Assembly: GCA_030737835.1 (NCBI GenBank)
Contig: CM060847.1
Span: 1,902,977 to 1,966,976 of the forward strand
From: Acorus gramineus
Lineage: Eukaryota; Streptophyta; Magnoliopsida; Acorales; Acoraceae
DNA length: 64,000 nucleotides
Direction: 5' to 3'
The notes below the pieces were generated by a model. That model was given only the letters and a program-made list of their open reading frames with translations, did no database searches and was not told where the DNA came from. The position numbers and the translations under genes are program-made. Of this stretch, positions 1,092 through 58,611 are shown piece after piece; position 1 is the first letter of the stretch, and each line of letters begins with the position of its first letter.

Positions 1092-1457
1092 ATGCCTCAA
1101 ATATGCTCCAGTTGTAGCAATATTGAGAGCATTAATTTTATATATTCTCGTTGCCGAACAACGATTTTTTTAAAATATCATATAACTCAACTCAATGGCA
1201 TAGCATCATTACCCGAAGTAAATGCATTTTATTTTATGTTCGCCATGGAAGTTGTGGTCATGAATGATGAGATCATGATTTATATAGTTGAGAAAGCACA
1301 ACAATCATAAAGTTTGTAAAATATCTCAAATCACTAGAAGTGATTTGCTATTAAACAAAAGCATAATTGAAGGGAAAAGGGTTGCAGAACAAACCCCTAA
1401 CACAAGGAAAATGATTGTTATGTATTTGGTGCTTTAAAAATATGGTCACGTACCTGA
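1092..1457 (+). pseudogene. Degenerate gag C-terminus (copia)
   Basis: The frame starting at 1092 contains LPEVNA, which resembles the linker near the end of plant copia gag. In the same frame 1416-1457 reads CYVFGALKIWSRT followed by a stop. This lines up with the gag CCHC zinc knuckle, with the second Cys, the His and the last Cys all lost (Phe, Ile and a stop codon). A stop at 1308-1310 and others up to 1457 interrupt the frame. The assignment rests on position directly before protease and on the knuckle spacing; the 1092-1310 part alone would not be convincing. Confidence 0.6.
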
Positions 1458-4400
1458 TGTACGATCAGACTTTTATAATTTTTATAATTATAATTTTTCT
1501 TTGTTATCTAAAATCCATTTTTCTTATTTTTATATTTATCTTATTTATTTCATTTTTTTTTTTTACAAGAATGGCTATGGTTGGTGACATTTGTCTAGCA
1601 GACAGCGCTACAACACATACGATCCTACGAAATAAACAATATTTCTCGACATTGACATTAATCAATGCAAATGTTAATACCATTTCTGGTACTACGAAAT
1701 TAATTGAAGGCTCCGGAAGAGCAAATATAATATTACCAGGAGGTACAAAATTTTGTATTAATGATGCATTATATTCAGCAAGATCCAGAAGAAATCTGCT
1801 AAGTTTTAAGGATATCCGTCTTAATGGATATCATATTGAGACTATCAATGAAAACAATATGGAGTATTTATGCATTACTTCAATTGTTTCAGGCCAAAAA
1901 CATGTATTAGAGAAACTTCATGCTTTCTCATCTGGGTTGTATTATACAACCATAAAAACAATCGAATCATATGCTGTAATGAACCAGAAGTTCTATGATT
2001 CAGATATTTTTACACTTTGGCATGATCGTCTCGGGCATCCAGGATCTACAATGATGCGTCGAATAATTGATAATTCATTTGGGCATTCGTTAAAGAACCA
2101 GAAGATTCTTTTACCTAATCACTATCAATGCACTTCGTGCTCACAAGGAAAATTGATAGTTAGACCATCCCCTACAAAAGTCAATGTTGAGTCACCAACA
2201 TTTTTGCAAAGAATCCAAGGGGATATATGTGGCCCAATCCACTATTGATAGACGCATCTGCTAGATGGTCGCATGTTTGTCTATTATCCACTCGGAATGC
2301 TGCATTTGCAAGACTACTTGCTCAGATAATCCGATTACAGTCGCATTTTTCGGATTATCATATAAAGTCAATACGTCTTGATGGAGCTGGTGAATTCACA
2401 TCGAAAACTTTTAACGACTATTGTATGTCGCATGGCATCGATGTTGAACACCCTGTTGCTCATGTGCACACCCAAAATGGATTAGCTGAATCATTTATTA
2501 AGCATCTTCAGCTAATTGCACGTCCTATGCTTTTGAGGACAAAATTACCCGTTTCAGCTTGGGGTCATGCTATATTGCATGCAGCAGCATTAGTTCGCCT
2601 TCGGCCAACTGCTTATCATCAATATTCCCCTTTACAGCTCGTACTGGGTCATCAACCAAATATTTCACATCTTCGAATTTTTGGTTGTGCTGTACAAGTT
2701 CCTATTGCCCCTACACAACGAACTAAAATGGGCCCTCAACGTCGATTGGGAATTTATGTAGGCTTTGATTCTCCCTCTATTATAAGATATCTTGAACCAT
2801 TGACAGGGGATGTTTTTACCGCTCGATTTGCGGATTGTCATTTTGATGAGACAATATTCCCGTCATTAGGGGGAGAAAATCCGTCGCCAGAAGAACGACG
2901 TGAACTTATATGGAAAACTCCATCTTTGTCTCATCTTGATCCTCGCACTAATCAATGTGAAACTGAAGTGCAAAGAATCACTCATCTTCAAAGAATTGCG
3001 CATCAATTGCCAGATGCATTCAATGATGCAGCAAAAGTGATGAAATCACATATTCCAGCTGCTAATACTCCAGCTCGAATTAATGTTCCAATAGGAAAAA
3101 CTGCTAATATGCCGGCTAATGAATCAACAAAAACACGCCTGAAGCGTGGAAGACCTATAGGCTCAAAAGATTCAGCTCCCCGAAGGAGAAAAACAATGAA
3201 GAATAATTCTCTAGAAGAGTATGAAACACTTGAAAGACCCACAATAATAACTCCTATAGAGGAAGAAGTCCCTGAAGTGACACAAGTCCCTGAAGAGACT
3301 GACGTCCCTGAAGTGACGCCCGTGCATGAAGAACAAGTACATGGAAATGAAGAAATTTCCATAAATTATGCAAATTCACAAATATTGTGGGATCGAAAGC
3401 AAGTGCTTGTTGATGATATATTCTCATTTGCAGTAGCTACAGAAATCATTTCAGATAATGATTTAGAACCACGTTCAGTGGATGAATGCAGACGAAAAAA
3501 TTGTTGGCCACAATGGAAAGCTGCTATTCAAACAGAATTGGATTCACTTGCAAAACACCAAGTATTTGGACCAGTAGTCCTAACCCCTGAAGGTGTTAAA
3601 CCAGTAGGATGTAAATGGGTGTTTGCGAGAAAACGAAATGAAAGAAACGAGATTGTTAGATACAAAGCTCGTCTTGTGGCACAGGGTTTCCTGCAGAGAC
3701 CTGGGATAGATTTTGAAGAGACATATTCTCCTGTGATGGACACAATCACATTTCGGTATTTAATTAGTCTTGTAGTCTCAGAAGGACTTGACATGCAGCT
3801 AATGGATGTGGTTACTGCATATTTATATGGAAAATTAGATACCGACATTTATATGAAAGTTCCTGAAGGACTAAAATTGCCTGAAGCAAAACCACGAAAT
3901 ATGTACTCAATAAAGTTAAGACGATCCTTGTATGGATTAAAGCAATCTGGACGAATGTGGTATAACCGTCTTAGTGAGTACTTAATAAAAGAAGGATATG
4001 TCAATGATCCAATATGCCCCTGTGTATTTATTAAGAAAATGGAACTCGGATTTACCATTATTGCAGTATATGTTGATGATATTAATCTAATTGGGACTCC
4101 TGAAGAGCTCAAAAAGGCTTCCGAATATCTGAAAAAGGAGTTTGAAATGAAAGATCTTGGAAAAACAAGATATTGTCTCGGCTTGCAAATTGAGCAAAGT
4201 TCAAATGGGATACTTGTTCATCAAACAGCATATGTTGAAAAAATCCTGAAGCGTTTTAATATGGACAAATGTCATCCATTAAGTACTCCAATGGTAGTAA
4301 GGTTACTTGACCCCAAAAAGGATCCTTTTCGTCCAAAAGAAGATACTGAAAATCTTCTTGGTCCTGAAGTACCATATCTTAGTGCAATTGGTGCCTTATT

Positions 4401-5079
4401 ATATTTGGCCCAATGCACTAGACCTGACATTGCATTTTCAGTTAATTTATTGGCCAGATTTAGCTCTGCACCAACTCGAAGGCATTGGAATGGTGTGAAG
4501 CACATTTTTCGTTATCTTCGTGGAACGTCAGACATGGGTCTATTCTATGCAAAGGATTCCAATAATGGTGCACAACTAAAGGGTTATGCAGATTCAGGAT
4601 ATCTTTCAGATCCTCACAAGGCTCGCTCACAAACAGGCTATGTATTCACTTGCGGTGGCACAGCAATCTCTTGGCGATCTACGAAACAGACTTTGGTCGC
4701 CACGTCTTCTAACCACTCTGAGATTCTTGCACTCCACGAAGCAAGCCGGGAATGCGTGTGGATAAGGTCTTTGGTTCATCATATTCGTACTGCATGCGGA
4801 CTATCTCTCATTACAGATGTTCCAACAACTATATATGAAGACAATGCAGCATGCATTGCTCAAATCAAAGGGGGATATATCAAGGGTGATAGAACAAAGC
4901 ATATTTCTCCAAAATTCTTTTACACTCATGAGCTCCAGCAGAGACATGAAATTGATGTTCAACAAATTCAGTCAAAGGACAATCTTGCAGATTTGTTTAC
5001 TAAAGCTTTGTCGACATCAACATTCAAGAAGCTGGTGTATGAAATCGGGATGCGACGAGTTTGCGACCAAAATTCTTGA
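1415..5079 (+). pseudogene. Copia pol polyprotein, frameshifted
   Basis: The first frame (1415-2248) holds the aspartic protease signature ADSATTH near 1600 and the GAG-pre-integrase HHCC finger (LWHDRLGHPG and CTSCSQGK, about 2017-2150). It ends in integrase after GDICGPIHY. The second frame (2227-5079) resumes at LLIDASARW, carries the later integrase acidic residues (LDGAGEF and NGLAESF), then reverse transcriptase with the active-site box YVDD at 4068-4079, and RNase H with ADSGYLSD and EDNAACIAQ. The switch at 2227-2248 is a frameshift plus loss of about a dozen integrase residues, so integrase is inactivated. The RT and RNase H frames are intact, which suggests a moderately young copy. 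Confidence 0.9.
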
Positions 5080-42345: not shown

Positions 42346-43035
42346 TCATTCAGCCGTCGCAGGGACCGTCGACCCCTCCTCCCCTGCGCCGTCGCCAAAC
42401 ACCTTCGCAATCCGCTTCGTCGGTATGAGCGGTAGATAAACAGCCACCGCGTACCCCTTCTCCGCCGAGTACCCGACAATCCGATTATACTTCTCCGCCA
42501 AAAACGCCGCCGTCGGCACCACCACCTGCGGCACGAGCGGGACACGTCTGAGCGTCTTCCACGCCGACACGGCGTACCCCTCCGCGACCGGCTCGTACTT
42601 CGCGACGGCCGACTTCGCCGTCCCCACCACGCCCGCCCTCTTCACCTCCGTCGCGACCGATTTCGCCGCCTCCGGCACGTGCCTCTGGATCTCGATGAGC
42701 GTCTCGCCGACTTTCCGGTCGACGAAGGAGAGGAGCTCGTACGGGACGTCGTGGAGCTTCTCGTAGACGGGGCCGATGACGGTCTTGACGGCGCTTTCGA
42801 CGGTCTGGACGCCGGGCTTCAACGGCCCGGCGTTCTCTTTCGCGTACTCGTAGACGCTGGTGAGGTAGACGACGGCGTTGATCGCCGCCACGCGGACGAA
42901 ATCCAGGTACTTCAGCCTCTTCTCCTCCTCCACATCCTGCAACCCCCAAAAAATTAGGACCAGAAAACGAAAAATAGAAACCCTAACCCTAAGAAATCAA
43001 CTTACGATTTCGATGGTCTGATTCTCTTCCGCCAT
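42346..43035 (-). CDS. REF/SRPP small rubber particle-like stress protein
   Basis: Two exons: 43006-43035 encodes MAEENQTIEI, then GT-AG intron 42937-43005, then 42346-42936; total 206 residues. The REF domain spans about 20-180: YLDFVRVAAINAVVYLTSVY, YAKENAGPLKPGVQTVESAV, KTVIGPVYEKLHDVPYELL, VDRKVGETLIEIQRHVPEAA, and PLVPQVVVPTAAFLAEKYN. The family coats lipid droplets or rubber particles. In non-rubber plants, members (SRP/LDAP) support lipid-droplet growth, drought tolerance and vegetative growth. Codons are strongly GC-rich. A TATA-like box lies about 85 bp upstream. Exon 1 and flanks have a broken relative at 51650-51690. Confidence 0.9.
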
Positions 43036-48940: not shown

Positions 48941-51173
48941 CTACTTCTTTCTGGACCAATCCCCACTCTTGCCGCCGGTCTTGCGCTCCAAATAAACATC
49001 TGTTATCTTCAAGTCCTTGGAAGCCGCTTTACACATGTCGTACACAGTAAGCCCAGCTACAGTCACAGCAGTCAGTGCCTCCATCTCCACGCCTGTCTTT
49101 CCTGTCGTCGCAGCCTCTCCTTCAATCTCTACACTGAAGTCCTCCTCGTTTAATGTTAAATTCATGTTGATGTGCGTGAGGCCAATGTTATGGCATAGAG
49201 GGATGAGTTGGCTCGTCTGCTTCGCTCCGCTGATTCCGGCAATCTTTGCAACATTGAGGACATCTCCTTTGGCAATCTGGTTGGCTGCAACTAAATTGTA
49301 CACCTTCTCACCAAGTAAGACTCTGCATCTGGCAGAGGCAACTCGCCTGCTGTCCTTCTTAGAAGATATATCAACCATGTTGGCTTCCCCATGGGTGTTC
49401 ACATGGGTCAGTCTGGGTTCACTTTGGTTGGATTCAACGGAAATGTGAGGTGACTCTTCAGCATTCAGAAAGCCTGGAGTGACGTGACCAACAGAAGGAG
49501 ATTCACCGGTAATAAATTCCATCTCCTGAAAATATTATGACGGGGAGGAGATGAGGCATGAGTATAAAAAGGATGTGTGTACATCGTTTCTTCAAAAGAT
49601 TTAGAGGGATGATTCCATTAACATAGCAATTCAAGGAAAAGATAATGAAACAGAAACTTCATGACATAGAAGAATCTGTGCTTAATGTAAATAAACCAAA
49701 AACTGTTCTCACAATCAGCAAAATATGAGAGAAAACAATATTCTTGAGGATCAGAACAGCAGAGTCACCAACTCTAATAAATGAGGGAGGTGCATACCAT
49801 TTTGAATGCATCAATAGTATTGTCAAACATGCTGCACAAAATCTAGCAAAGCTTTCGTGTCTACAAGTGCCCAGTGAACAAAATGTTCTAAGTCAGTGTG
49901 CCTAATGTTCATTATATGCATGATGTCTGAACAATGAGCATACAAACAATTATCATGAATAAAGATGGTGATGAAATGAACCATCTGGCTGTTGGGAATC
50001 ATTGTTGATGAAGAATGAAAACTGAAGAGAGTAGAGATATTTGATTGGAAACTTCTACAATCTACGATAAAGACAGGCACAGATGGTTATAAATCTTATT
50101 TCCAATGCCAATTACCAGATAAGTATTCTCTTCACAGCATAGTAGAAAAATATAACTTATAACCTATGCTAAACAAAGCAAGATTATTATCCCTATAATT
50201 GCTGCCATATTCTCAATTTCTAGACAGTTTGACACAATTCCAAGGACACATCGTTTTAATAAGTTATGACACCTTGAGTTAAATTAAATCTAGCAAGACC
50301 ATCAATTGTGTATCAAGCCCAAGACCACAAAGATCAGTAGACACAAAAAAAAAAAAAAAAAACATAGTCCATCTTTTCTAAAAGCGTTTACCTGCTCTTA
50401 CTCACAAAATATCTGCATATGCTTGACCTCAAATGATATAAATAGCCTCCCAAAAAAAACTGAAAATGTTAGAATTATCCCCATTTCCAACCCCAAATGC
50501 AGTCCGCATCTTTTTTTATTTTTAAAAAAAATAACATACCTCATCTCATGAGGTATGTACTTTTGTAAAAAGTAAATATATACTCCAATGAATTGTATAA
50601 ACTCATTTATAGAATGTGTAAAAAAAACTCTAACGAGATATATATACCTCATTACAGTGAGTGCAGGTGGCTAACGAGGTATATGTGGCTGTAAAATAGG
50701 TTGAATGTAGTGTTCAGGAAAGAAAGAAAAAAAAAACAGCACAAAATCCTCTAGTTTAGCCACAAACTTTTTAAATTATCAAAAGATGCACAATATTGAA
50801 ACATATAAAACAAAACCCAAATCAAGTAATTTACATGGGGTTGGCACTTTGGCTAGAGCCATGGGTTTGCTCCCCATAGGCCTTGAGCTCAAATCGTCCG
50901 GCTTACCTGATGCACAAGGTTTGTGGGTGATTTTGTGCATCTGGGGTTTCCCCAACATAAGAAAAAATTAATAATATAATGTTTCTCATCACCCAAAATA
51001 AAATTAAAAAAAACAAAACCAAGCTACAAAAAAAGATCAATTACGATACATAAGCGATTGTGGTCGATGATTACCTTATTGTACTCATTGATTGCAGCAC
51101 TAATATCAGATTGAGTGCTGACACATCTCCTCAAAGAAGGGAGGCGCGCCACCGCGTAGCGCCTGAGAAACAT
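48941..51173 (-). CDS. CNX3: CNX3, MoaC-type cPMP synthase, mitochondrial
   Basis: Two exons: 51075-51173 (33 codons, MFLRRYAVARLPSLRR...) and 48941-49525, joined by a 1.55-kb GT-AG intron in phase 0; 227 residues. Exon 1 is Arg-rich without acids at its start, a mitochondrial presequence. The MoaC domain begins at MVDISSKKDSRRVASA and includes QLIPLCHNIGLTHINMNL, TGKTGVEMEALTAVTVAG and the C-terminal KTGGKSGDW. The enzyme acts after the radical SAM protein CNX2, closing the pyran ring of cPMP, the first molybdenum-cofactor intermediate, in the mitochondrial matrix. The intron contains a family A MITE and a SINE. Confidence 0.93.
50480..50715. mobile_element. MITE, family A, in the CNX3 intron
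   Basis: The interior ACATACCTCATCTCATGAGG then GTAAATATATACTCCAATGA matches 6745-6830. The right end, reverse-complemented, reads CACTACATTCAACCTATTTT then ACAGCCACAT, the family end. Confidence 0.65.
50836..50972 (+). mobile_element. tRNA-derived SINE-like element, copy 2
   Basis: Blocks in order: CACTTTGGCTAGAGCCATGG (box-A-like), TTGAGCTCAAATCGTCC (box-B-like), GTGGGTGATTTTGTGCATC, GGGGTTTCCCCAAC, then an A-rich tail. The reverse complement of 13566-13695 has the same series. It lies antisense in the CNX3 intron. Confidence 0.65.
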
Positions 51174-53037: not shown

Positions 53038-56000
53038 ATGGCGAACGCGAACTTGTGCTTCCGATGTTCGTCGATGACGGCGGAGACGGCGGCGGCGTAT
53101 TCCGGTGCTCCGCGGGGAAGTATAAGGTGCTCCGGACTCGGTCCGAAGAAGGTCCCGATGCCCCCACTGAACCCAAAGGACCCCTTCCTTTCAAGGCTCT
53201 CCTCCCTCGCCGCCTCGGCCCCTCCGGATGCCCTCTCTCGTCCCTCCGCCTCGGACACACCGCCCTACCTCGACCTCTTCGATAATCCCATACTCATGGC
53301 GACTCCCGGCCAGGTTTCATTAAAAAAAATATATATCAAAATCATGTTTTTGACATGTTTTTATTGTTGTTTGGGAGGGGATTTGAAGTGGGTGTGTTTG
53401 AATTGTTCGAAAAAATTTGATTGTTTTGGTGGGTTTTTGTTGCAAACTTGCAATTCATGGATAAGATGGAGAGGTCAGTGTTCTATAATTGCGAATCCCG
53501 CTCAGGTTTCTATAAAAAAAATCAAAATCATGTTTTGACATGTTTTTATTGTTGTTTGGGCGGGGAATTGAAGTGGGTATGTTTCAATTGTTTCAAAAAA
53601 TCTGATTTTTTTGGTGGGTTTTGTTGGAATTCATGGATAGTAGTGTCCTACAATTGCTACTCCCGCCAGGTTTACATAAAAAATCAAAATCATGTTTTGA
53701 CATGTTCTTATTGTTGTTTGTGAGGGGGTTTGAAGTGGGCGTGTTTGAATTGTTTGAAAAAATCTGACTTTTTTGGTGGTTTTTGTTGGAAATCATTGAT
53801 AAGGCGGAGAGGTCAGTGTCCTACAATGAGCACAGGCCGAGGAGGCCTCCGCCTGATCTTCCATCGCTGCTTCTGCATGGCCGAATCGTCTACATTGGCA
53901 TGCCTGTAAATCCCTTTTGTTTTTTTGATATGTGTTTGCAACACATGGTGTTCTATTTGGATTACTAGTTTGATTGTTCTGATTCAGTTGGTGCCCGCTG
54001 TTACGGAGCTCGTTATTGCTGAATTAATGTACCTGCAATGGATGGATCCCAAGGATACAATCTACCTATATATCAATTCTACCGGAACCACTCGCGATGA
54101 TGGTGAAACTGTATGCCCCCCCCCCCCCCCCCCCCCTTCCAGTATGGATGGTTTTGTTACCTGGCTTAACCAGGGAAAAGTGATGAGCAATATGAAAATC
54201 TGGTTGAATATATGTTGAGTGACCAGTGTTTTCTTCTTATTCATAAATTTAGATTGGTCACAGAAAGAGTACGTGAAGTCCAATGTCTATACGTGTATTA
54301 CTCACGAGTCCAAGTGTCTATGTTCCTTGACGATCACAATAATTTTATTTCCCCCTTTCATTGAACACATTTCTCCATATTTCCAGTTTTTGGTGATTCA
54401 CCTTCTCGTGGACATATTTCACTCATCCAATACTTCATTGATAGAAATTGTAGTACATGTTCTTTATTGTCTTAAGTTGTAGTACATGTTCTCCTGCTAC
54501 AGAGCCTTATATGAAAAGGCTTATACATTCTTGTACAGTTTTATATCCTGACACTGTTCCCTCACATTTTATGGAAAAGCTTGTACAATAGTAAAATGTA
54601 TTATGTCTGATGTGCAGCAACGTATGTGTTAATATGTATGTTCAGAATATTTCTCCCCTTCCTTTTCTTTTTGGCTGACCAGTGTGTATAATTCTTTGGC
54701 CTTTACTCTGATCTTAATCGATCAGGATTTATAGTATATTTATATGAGTCAATCAATTAGTTGTTGCTGCATAAACTGTGACAATTTATGTGCTTTTGCC
54801 CCCGCCCCCTTAATTTTGGCTGTCCGTTTGTTTTATACCTTTGTCAATCATTGGCCATCACTTCTTGTTGGAATTTTCATCTCTAAAAAGTTCTTGTCCC
54901 TTTTTGAAACACTTGTATCGAACACTTGCTTGCTCTAAAGAGTGATAGCATGACTACTTAAATTAGAGGAATAGTTTTGTGCAAGTTATGGTTCATAAAA
55001 ATAGCATATTTTATCTACTATTCTTAATTTCTCCAGATGCATTTTTCGAGAAATGATAAAATCTACCAAGTTTCATTAAATGGACAAACGTAAGTACAAA
55101 AGGTAAAACCAAAAAAAATAAAAATGAAAGCAGGGGTGGGGGGAATAAGATATGTCCCACTCCAAAGCCCAGGATCCACACAGACCCTTACAGCCCTCTA
55201 ATCTCAACTTCACTCAACAAAAAACATACCCTCACTTCTAATAGACACTATTGGAATTGAGCACAGGATAATACCATTCTTTAAGGAAACAGACCATACT
55301 AGTCCAAGTGTTCTTGCAAGGAAATATCTGCTGTTAAACAACCTGCCATTTCTAGTGAGCCAGATGACCCAACACCCAGCATGAGAGCAAAGGTTGTAAG
55401 TTTTTACCCTTGGTTTCATCTTTTTTCTTCCTCTTACTCAACATAGCATAGACTGGATGGATGGAAAAGCTGCTTGGCTTGTCCCAATCTAAACTCTATT
55501 TTAACAAAATCATCTATTGAATTGGAATTGATGAACAAATGGTCAGCATCTTCATCAACAGCACCAGAGAGGTCACAATTAGTGTTCACATCCCCTTCCT
55601 TTTTAGTTAAAGCATTGCAACTTCAGAGGAGTTTCAACCATCCATGCCCTTTTGATCGTTCTAGCATCACTACCACTAACCATCCTCATTGGCTGCTGAT
55701 GGTTGGAGGGCAGGATTTTGTATCTAAGAGGCAAAATTATGTATTTATATTCCCGAATATACACGTTTTTCCATACAAGGGAACAAGATGCACAACAATT
55801 GACAGATATAAAGCATCCGTTTAATTTCCATGGTTTTATAGTTATTCCTTTTCGTGAAATGATCTTGTAGACTCACTTGGCGTTACATGGTTTCTGAATT
55901 TTTGTATTCAGGTTGGGATGGAGTCTGAAGGCTTTGCTATCTATGATGCCTTGATGCAACTGAAAAATGAGGTAGGTTTGTCTCTGCAGTCATTTTCTGT

Positions 56001-58611
56001 TTTTTTCCCTTTTTGTTAAAGGAAACTCTTTGCCTGTTAGTATGCTTGGATGTTTACCATATATCGTATTTGGTGGACATTCCACTTTTTTGCAAAAGAA
56101 AAGTTATGCTTACTGTCATTTGATGATTTTCTTTCTTGCTTTGGCCAAATAATAACAATCGGCAAAGTTAGTTTTTTCACAGTTTCTTTTCACATTTATT
56201 TATACTCTGCAGATTCAAACTGTCGCCGTTGGAGCAGCAATTGGCCATGCTTGTCTGCTACTTGCTTCTGGGAAGAAGGGTAGGCGATATATGATGCCAC
56301 ATGCAAAAGGTCTCGTTTCTCTGTTATTTTGTTTATAATCAAACCTTTATTAGGAAGTCACTTCTTTTTTAGTATAATGTAACAGAAAACCCTGTTTCAT
56401 ATACATTTCAGCCATGATTCAACAACCCCGTGTCCCATCATCTGGGCAAATGCCAGCAAGTGATGTTCTTATTCGTGCTAAAGAGGTATATGCTCGTTGT
56501 AACTAGAGGCTCTGATTATTTCCTGAAAATTACGATAAATGAGTACTTTCATTAGCTCAGCTTCTGTCTTTGCTATACTTATCAGTCATTAAAAAATTTA
56601 TTAATTTTTTTGGGTGTGTACCAAATCATGACTCACTGTAATTCTTGGTACAAAAATTTTAAATTTTTTCAACGTTCCATTAAATTGGTCAGTATACTTT
56701 TCCATGTCTAATTTTCAATCATTCAACTTGATGCCATGTTGATTCATTTAACATCATATCATTTACTGAATGCAAGATTGTGTCTACACTAACTTATTTA
56801 TGCCTCATATGAAGTTTTTCTTTAAGTTTGTCAGTCCATAATGAATCTATTATATTAGTGCCACAATTTCCTAGAAGGCCAAAATCTGGTTACTGGGTAG
56901 CTTATTAGAGTTTCCTGAAGTTCAGCAATTATTAACTCTAATACAGTGTGATGGTTATTACAAACAAGACAGTGCCTACTATGCGTACTGACCAGCAACA
57001 TACTGTTTACTATGCTTCTAAGAAATATCAACTCCAAGAAATGTAGAAGGAAACTAGAAATCATATTCTCATCACAGCAATCTGGCCATCACAGCAGGGC
57101 TTATGAATTTCTTTCATTGCCTACCACTTATTGGAGAAAGCCAACCATAATTTGGATGCTTTTCCCAAAAGCTCTTTAGGTCATCCTGCTCATAATCTCA
57201 TTTGAATGTGAATAGTGATCTGAGAAACATGTCTATATTATATGATAAACTATTCTGGTCTCCTGTCTATAGGGTTTTGGCAGCTATATGAAGCCAGTGA
57301 GTTATTTATAAAGTAACAAACAAATGGTGAGGCCAAGGCAATAAGACATGCCATTTTGGTGCCAGCCTCATATTTATTGATGAACTCCATTATTACCTAG
57401 TACCTACAAATAACATGAAAAGAATTGGAAGTATTCTATGATATAGTTGTTTAAGTTGACAGTTGATTGGTTTCACTCTCTCTCTCTCTCTCTTTAAATA
57501 ACGTGCATGCTGCAATCCGAGAATAAGACTCTTCATTATGTAAATTTTCTTCACTTTTTTTTAAAATTGGCGTCCTACCTGGCACAAGGCACAGATGGGA
57601 TTTGAACTTCAGACCCCCGGTTGGGTGGTGTGTGGTGCTCTCTGGCTAAGAAAATTGTTCCTATGTGATTGTCTTGGAAAATTGCTCATATTGTCATTGT
57701 GTATCCTATTCGTTTGTATATCCTCTAAACATTGATTGGATTGAATTTCTGAGTGATTTGAATCCTCTCTTTTATCTTCCCTTTTCTTGTAGTCTTCCTT
57801 TTTTTGGTAATAACGCTTGGAGACACCATATTCCACCATAAAAAAATGTTCTTGTTTCATGTACTGTTTGACCTTGCAGAGAAGAATACAGGAAAAGAAA
57901 TTTTGTGGGAATTGGGTAGTTTTATTTACATTTTTCCCCTTTCGTGACACATTGAGCCTCAGATAATAGGTTGCATTCCTCTCTTTCATTTGAATATGCT
58001 AGTGGAAGATCTCTTCCAAGACAACTAACCAGATTGGTTTGGTTTGGTACACTTTAATGCTAAATCAGTGAGGTCTCTGCTGCTTGTAACATTTCTGTTG
58101 CAATAAAATGTGTGTTTGTTTCATATTCTGATAAAACTGTCATCTTGCAGGTGATCAATAATAGGGACATACTAGTTAAACTTCTAGCAAGACACACTGG
58201 AAATGTGAGTGCATATAAATATTTGTTGCTTTAAAATGTTCACATTTGATAACGAGTTCTGATCAGTTTCTTGTTAATAGTCTGTAGAAAAAGTGTCCCA
58301 GGTGATGCGGAGGCCATTTTATATGGATTCAACAAAAGCCAAGGAATTTGGTGTGATTGATAAGGTATGCCATGCATTCACCATTGCTGTGGTTTTATTG
58401 CTTCAACTGATGTCATAGAATCGATCTTCTACAGTTTTTCTTTTCATTTTCTGAATTCCTACCTGTGGTATGTGATCCATTATGATTCATTTCAATTTTT
58501 TTGCTTGGGTCACAGATTCTCTGGCGTGGTCAAGAGAAAGTGATGACGGAGGTCGCCTCACCCGAAGAATGGGACAAGAAAGCAGGCATCAAAGTAGTTG
58601 ATGGAATGTGA
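53038..58611 (+). CDS. CLPR3: ClpR3, non-catalytic plastid Clp protease subunit
   Basis: Nine exons: 53038-53313, 53804-53905, 53988-54110, 55912-55971, 56213-56309, 56412-56485, 58151-58204, 58281-58364, 58516-58611. All are GT-AG and phase-consistent; 321 residues, near the family length. Residues 1-40 are a transit peptide; VPMPPLNPKDPFLS and YLDLFDNPILM mark ClpR3. The ClpP fold follows (GRIVYIGMPLVPAVTELV, INSTGTTRDDGETVGME). The catalytic triad is gone: Gly198 in VGAAIGHACLLL replaces Ser, Gln223 in MIQQP replaces His, and RRPFYM lacks the Asp. ClpR subunits form the R ring of the stromal ClpPR core with ClpP1. Junction repeats lie in intron 1. Confidence 0.93.
53299..53820. repeat. Triplicated exon1-intron1-exon2 junction of ClpR3
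   Basis: A unit running from the last 15 bases of exon 1 through intron 1 into the start of exon 2 occurs three times. The exon-1-end copies are GCGACTCCCGGCCAG (53299), GCGAATCCCGCTCAG (53491) and GCTACTCCCGCCAG (53656), each followed by a GTTT donor. The exon-2-start copies are GAGAGGTCAGTGTTCTA (53469), AGTGTCCTACAATTG (53642) and GAGAGGTCAGTGTCCTA (53807), each preceded by AG. Periods are 192 and 164 bp. Only the outer exon parts make a standard ClpR3. Confidence 0.9.
54116..54136 (+). repeat. Poly-C run at the intron 3 donor
   Basis: About 21 consecutive C's begin five bases after the exon 3 end (GTATG then C-run). This is unusually close to a splice donor and likely length-variable. 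Confidence 0.85.
57565..57655 (-). mobile_element. tRNA-like SINE head, different family
   Basis: The minus strand reads TTAGCCAGAGAGCACC (box-A-like) and GAAGTTCAAATCCCATC (a near-perfect box B), about 40 bp apart, followed by TGTGCCTTGTGCC. The spacing fits a tRNA-derived SINE promoter, but the flanks do not fold into an intact tRNA. Located in ClpR3 intron 6. A CT dinucleotide run lies nearby at about 57475-57493. Confidence 0.4.

Follow-up and report, generated by a model that had tools for sequence, protein, structure and literature searches.

In the window analysed here (the whole stretch of 64,000 nucleotides from Acorus gramineus, C1:1902977-1966976), a ClpR-type gene carries three diverged tandem copies of its first intron, and between these copies lie two short segments composed of exon edges. 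The question raised by this locus is whether such segments are spliced into the messenger RNA as small exons, or whether they are relics that leave the transcript together with the intron copies around them. The array can be viewed as a polarised natural experiment, in which three diverged intron copies would compete within one transcript, while contig C2 carries another copy of the gene, with a single first intron, as a control within the same genome. It thus bears on how the spliceosome chooses among near-equal sites and on how a gene survives an intron duplication that breaks its frame, and inclusion of both segments, if it occurs, would clearly exemplify the making of small exons from exon edges.

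The ClpR-type gene and its collinear copy

The gene (53038-58611, forward strand) consists of nine exons (Table 1) and is complete, with an open frame of 966 nt, stop included, that encodes 321 residues. The predicted protein matches Pfam family PF00574 (CLP_protease; E 1.6e-42), which places it in the Clp protease fold family, and its nearest solved homologue is PDB chain 7eko_N, which represents the ClpR subunits in the core of the chloroplast Clp protease (residues 99-299, E 3.2e-54). Aligned with 8r04_A, the predicted protein has Gly opposite the Ser of AASM and Gln (MIQQP) opposite the His of MIHQP; we take this Ser and this His to be the catalytic residues of that chain, and the subunit is therefore assigned to the ClpR type. 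That it corresponds to ClpR3, rather than to ClpR1, R2 or R4, is an assumption, the number itself coming from an earlier, sequence-only reading of this DNA. The canonical protein looks ordinary, and the intron 1 array is the only departure noticed in the C1 gene. A run of 21 C (54116-54136) is located just within intron 3.

Table 1. Exons of the ClpR3 gene model and components of its intron 1 array (window positions)
Feature	Position	Strand	Remarks
ClpR3 exon 1	53038-53313	+	92 codons; last 15-18 nt form the left edge of the repeat unit; open frame, PDB and Pfam matches
Composite intron 1	53314-53803	+	490 nt when spliced from the outermost donor to the outermost acceptor; a 128-nt single unit in the C2 copy
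Intron unit 1	53314-53465	+	152 nt; from alignment of units
Exon-like segment 1	53466-53505	+	40 nt; 24 nt copied from the start of exon 2, then 16 nt copied from the end of exon 1
Intron unit 2	53506-53640	+	135 nt; from alignment of units
Exon-like segment 2	53641-53669	+	29 nt; fusion as in segment 1, 11 nt shorter
Intron unit 3	53670-53803	+	134 nt; bears the canonical exon 2 acceptor; CTGAC, a branch-like site, lies 40 nt before that acceptor
ClpR3 exon 2	53804-53905	+	First 24 nt form the right edge of the repeat unit
ClpR3 exon 3	53988-54110	+	Gene model
ClpR3 exon 4	55912-55971	+	Gene model
ClpR3 exon 5	56213-56309	+	Gene model
ClpR3 exon 6	56412-56485	+	Gene model
ClpR3 exon 7	58151-58204	+	Gene model
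ClpR3 exon 8	58281-58364	+	Gene model
ClpR3 exon 9	58516-58611	+	Gene model

A search of the genome by DNA (398.6 Mb in 137 contigs) identified copies of ClpR3 on C1 and C2 only. The C2 copy has nine exons of the same lengths as those on C1, exon 1 included, an intact frame, and a single intron 1; the single-copy state of this intron is thus found in one relative, within the same genome. Comparison with 80 kb of C2 revealed that matches at 25.7-26.3, 30.4-30.7, 36-38, 42.4-43.0 and 53-58.6 kb of the window have kept their order on C2, and further matches at 27-28 and 39-41 kb are also in order, while those at 5.5, 6.7, 7.6, 50.5, 52.4 and 58.8 kb are short, out of order, and taken for dispersed repeats. 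Since the two neighbourhoods are collinear, the block looks like the product of a segmental or whole-genome duplication. Between the two genes, Ks is 0.45 and Ka 0.075, with a Ka/Ks of about 0.08 for exons 2-9 and of about 0.57 for exon 1.

Other features of the window were recorded alongside the gene. A gene of the rubber elongation factor (REF) family at 42346-42996 has its collinear counterpart at C2 19982773-19983333. A MoaC-type frame at 48941-49534, presumably CNX3-like, has no match among those listed for the 80 kb of the collinear C2 block, suggesting that its C2 copy may have been lost or moved after the duplication. The coding region of a copia-type retrotransposon, with GAG-pre-integrase and RVT_2 domains in two overlapping frames, occupies 1415-5079, and a tandem repeat at 523-1009 holds some three (3.1) copies of 157 nt that match at 97%.

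Structure and age of the intron 1 array

Intron 1 of ClpR3 consists of three diverged tandem copies of one unit, which runs from the final codons of exon 1 across all of intron 1 and over the first 24 nt of exon 2 (up to codon 8). These copies are direct and adjacent, and each contains the complete parental intron with a portion of either flanking exon. The sequence-only reading had described a triplicated exon-intron junction, and the repeats on which it relied are real, with pairwise E-values of 1.6e-38, 1.5e-38 and 5e-43 that are well beyond chance, but it is the whole intron, and not the junctions alone, that has been triplicated. Tandem Repeats Finder places a repeat of period 162 at 53477-53801 (score 496). 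Exon 1 ends with CAG at 53313, followed by GT, and both segments are preceded by AG and followed by GT, precisely at the positions that had been proposed (53466-53505 and 53641-53669). Segment 2 also has a tandem acceptor, ATAGTAG, whose second AG would shift its start to 53644 and reduce its length to 26 nt. Unit 1 is longer than the two others, owing either to insertions of its own or to deletions in units 2 and 3. The intron units have a G+C content of 0.30-0.31, below that of the segments (0.47 and 0.52) and of exons 1 and 2 (0.64 and 0.59), and the two exon breakpoints of the repeat unit have two or three bases in common (AT/ATG).

Tandem near-repeats can be assembled wrongly, and a false expansion of such a repeat could in principle mimic the array. 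The units differ, however, at 9-12% of their aligned intron sites and by several indels, with 6, 5 and 9 changes private to a single unit (singletons). These differences far exceed read error or ordinary allelic difference, and the notion of an assembly artefact is therefore scarcely credible.

Divergence among the intron units (K2P of 0.095, 0.122 and 0.130) lies far below that between the units and intron 1 of the C2 copy (0.44-0.57). Because of this difference, and because the C2 intron is single, the array is most likely younger than the gene duplication, though old in itself. If rates were alike and the units had evolved without sequence exchange, it would be about one quarter the age of that duplication; exchange among the units could give it a falsely young look. 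Both inner junctions read AATTGC, as opposed to the ATGGC of exon 1, which suggests that the two descend from one copied junction. The K2P values and the numbers of singletons proved too even to place the three units in a clear branching order. The origin of the unit as a transposon was also rejected as far as tested: it bears both exon edges, and, apart from itself and units 1 and 3, unit 2 matches within the window only a pair of short, AT-rich stretches (E 1.5e-4 and 0.006, lengths 19 and 21 bases), with no match in the C2 stretches compared. In addition, a genome-wide DNA search spanning the array, in which only the best candidates were scored and very common words were skipped, showed no match to the array outside C1 among those listed.

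Multiplication of introns by tandem duplication has been described in plants, and the array is, to judge from its units, a further case of this known process. An account of intron gain through tandem duplication in potato (PMC4974935) cites the TOUCH3 gene of Arabidopsis (Knowles & McLysaght 2006), where tandem duplication took in a whole intron together with exon sequence on either side; it reports two such internal duplications there and speaks of the multiplication of a pre-existing intron. ClpR3 resembles TOUCH3, as outlined in that account, in being a plant gene with an internal tandem duplication of a whole existing intron and its exonic flanks; it differs in that the exon parts amount to only 40 nt per ancestral unit, were out of frame at the origin, and make up exons that are putative. 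The potato introns are likewise comparable in that a duplication runs across an exon-intron boundary and splice signals are inherited from the parent intron, but in the case reported there one intron-exon boundary was copied and the new intron was confirmed by RNA-seq, whereas in ClpR3 both boundaries and the whole intron are present three times, a description drawn from genomic sequence. What the array appears to add to this class is a start that breaks the frame, a later loss that restores it, and a control copy with a single intron in the same genome. Literature listings for ClpR3 with intron tandem duplication, alternative splicing, or the N-terminus and transit peptide held nothing on the array.

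Splice signals and open splice paths

Splice sites were scored with a position weight matrix (PWM) built from 15 control introns of the two gene copies, which serves as a coarse guide. The three donors of the array (CAG/GTTTCA, CAG/GTTTCT and CAG/GTTTAC) are similar to that of the C2 copy (CAG/GTTTCG) and pair equally well with U1 (-5.6 kcal/mol); by the 15-intron matrix the real donor scores 4.6, and the inner two 6.4 and 6.7. The acceptor of exon 2 scores 0.8, that of segment 1 -2.3 and that of the C2 copy -5.3, within a range of -5.3 to 9.4 for the controls, and all three end in AAG. In segment 2, the first AG is poor (-7.0), while the second, at 5.7, lies above the real acceptor and among ordinary controls. 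The consensus for branch sites used here is CTRAY: a CTGAC is found 40 nt before exon 2 and a CTGAT 39 nt before segment 2, while no CTRAY match precedes segment 1 (only TTGAT and TTCAT) or occurs in intron 1 of C2. Competition among the splice sites of the array is thus to be expected. With inner donors on a par with the real one, and with a weak real acceptor that is outscored by the second AG of segment 2, some splicing within the array is plausible, and a low level of use of the inner sites seems likely.

The three inner introns that would result (152, 135 and 134 nt) are of ordinary size, comparable to the 128-nt intron of the C2 copy. A naive model in which nearest pairs of sites are joined would consequently include both segments, given the competitive inner donors and second AG. 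A better-looking donor, GAG/GTCAGT (U1 -8.5 kcal/mol), is also present within exon 2 (53804-53819) and within its copy in segment 1 (53466-53481), and splicing from the latter to exon 2 would lead to an early stop.

It had been proposed that the two segments are cryptic mini-exons that keep the frame as a pair. Translation bears out the arithmetic: joined, they add 69 nt, or 23 codons, and the frame continues through exon 2 to the normal stop without interruption, while each alone breaks it, segment 1 leading to a stop at codon 114 and segment 2 to a TAG at codon 93. The pair is not the sole solution, however. When the three donors and the four acceptors were combined, with a minimum intron length of 70 nt and with full retention as one of the outcomes, twelve splice paths resulted, and five of them are open, namely the canonical path and those that add 66, 69, 192 or 204 nt; an open frame is thus not unique to the path that uses both segments. 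The 66-nt path is the pair with the second AG of ATAGTAG. The remaining seven meet an early stop, including every path with a single segment between removed introns (+40, +29 and +26 nt). Intron unit 1 and segment 1 (53314-53505) together are open in the frame of exon 1 over 192 nt, or 64 codons, and retention of unit 1 with use of the segment 1 donor would therefore give a full-length frame.

Any insert would follow residue 92. Residue 110 pairs with residue 18 of 1tyf_A, which we take to be ClpP of E. coli, and by counting back along this alignment the insert would sit at about the start of the mature bacterial protein. The proteins encoded on C1 and C2 differ at 18 of residues 1-38, at 8 of the 54 residues from 39 to 92 and at only 1 of the 20 from 93 to 112. 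By this pattern, the insertion site lies at the edge of a conserved stretch and probably some distance beyond the end of the transit peptide.

How the frame match may have arisen, and the probable fate of the segments

With the exon edges of both gene copies as a guide, each ancestral segment was probably 40 nt long, and the 29 nt of segment 2 would then be the outcome of a later net loss of 11 nt. Inclusion of one ancestral segment, so reconstructed, leads to an early stop, and inclusion of two (80 nt) shifts the frame, so that the present match of 69 nt would reflect the later loss and not the duplication itself. The coding frame of the gene has nevertheless been kept since the triplication, for which the chance in the absence of selection is 1.3e-3 or 9e-7 (at 0.1 or 0.25 indels per substitution, respectively), when any indel is counted as disabling and the intron singletons are taken as the mutation rate. 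As the ancestral inclusions stop or shift the frame and the coding frame yet survived, the simplest view is that the path that skips both segments has been the working one. A short non-functional spell, buffered by the C2 copy and ended by the restoring loss, may nevertheless have occurred.

These arguments point to an arrangement that we hold to be probable, if some way from assured: the outer sites would produce the main mRNA, and the inner segments would be relics with some unproductive splicing. In this scheme, the donor at 53313/53314 would be joined to the acceptor at 53803/53804, and the array removed as one intron of 490 nt, to yield the protein of 321 residues. The segments, as relics that still bear usable splice signals, would enter transcripts at a low level, mostly in stop-containing messages that decay, and a minor in-frame form with 22 or 23 additional residues may exist. 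Harm during fixation of the array would have been buffered by the intact C2 copy.

On a different reading, both segments would normally be spliced in as small exons, so that the product of this copy gains 22-23 residues (MERSVFYNCESRSVVSYNCYSRQ, or the same with one V less) ahead of the Clp fold; segment 2 would have lost its 11 nt as a compensation by which the frame was regained. The inner splice dinucleotides are indeed intact at all four sites, either choice at the tandem acceptor keeps the frame, the three introns produced are short and of ordinary size, and, as indicated above, the inner donors are as good as the real one and a weak real acceptor is surpassed by the second AG of segment 2. 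The frame match itself, however, needs no selection. Neutral simulations (three parameter settings, 60,000 runs each, with rough rates of 0.05-0.08 substitutions per site and 0.1-0.25 indels per substitution) retained all four dinucleotides in 0.43-0.64 of runs, and dinucleotides, frame and absence of stops jointly in 0.06-0.11; given surviving dinucleotides, the probability of a frame match is 0.10-0.20. The match is mildly lucky, not remarkable. With this joint chance, and with 4 of the 11 non-canonical paths open, retention of the frame was rejected as evidence of selection.

Rates of change in the segments also argue against normal inclusion. Expected numbers were taken from the intron singletons (20 in 3 x 132 sites), with the inferred ancestor as reference. 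Segment 1 has changed at 5 of its 40 sites, where 2.0 changes would be expected at the intron rate (P of at least 5: 0.05), and, by a reading of positions, four of the five changes alter the amino acid in the proposed frame. For both segments, 6 of 67 sites have changed against 3.4 expected (P 0.13), a count for which segment 2 was aligned by hand and which becomes 7 with another placement of the gap. Slower change than in the intron, as purifying selection on microexons would leave, was thus sought in the segments and none was found. Moreover, the conservation of residues 93-112 between the copies means that an insert of 23 residues immediately before them might be costly, and the reconstructed ancestral pair was out of frame. 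Normal inclusion is held to be unlikely, and as between relics and a 23-residue isoform the evidence slightly favours relics.

A more specific form of inclusion would be a working cassette of two microexons, in which each tiny exon alone ruins the message, the pair inserts 22-23 residues ahead of the Clp fold in the product of one of the two ClpR3 copies as an all-or-none event made possible by the 11-nt loss, and both kinds of ClpR3 subunit would occur in a single chloroplast. We consider this improbable.

The inner sites could alternatively be used singly, so that a sizeable share of the messages is degraded through early stops and the array damps the output of this copy. Seven of the twelve paths, those of +40, +29 and +26 nt among them, do end in early stops, the donors compete on equal terms, and there is a precedent in Drosophila, where, according to PMC2809761, new introns with weak sites are hidden from selection by nonsense-mediated decay. 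The frame of the C1 copy has been kept, however, and nothing points to selection on dosage; such damping is held to be unlikely.

Comparison with known microexons concerns the segments as hypothetical exons. With 40 and 29 or 26 nt, both fit the size of plant microexons, defined in PMC12409088 as at most 51 nt. The 45 conserved clusters of plant microexons of 1-15 nt treated in PMC8831610 tend to be flanked by introns with strong splice signals, and retention of microexons is reported there to be more frequent in plants, where animals often show skipping. Set beside these descriptions, the ClpR3 segments differ in that the donors and most acceptors of the array are weak, and in that the segments themselves are copies of exon edges.
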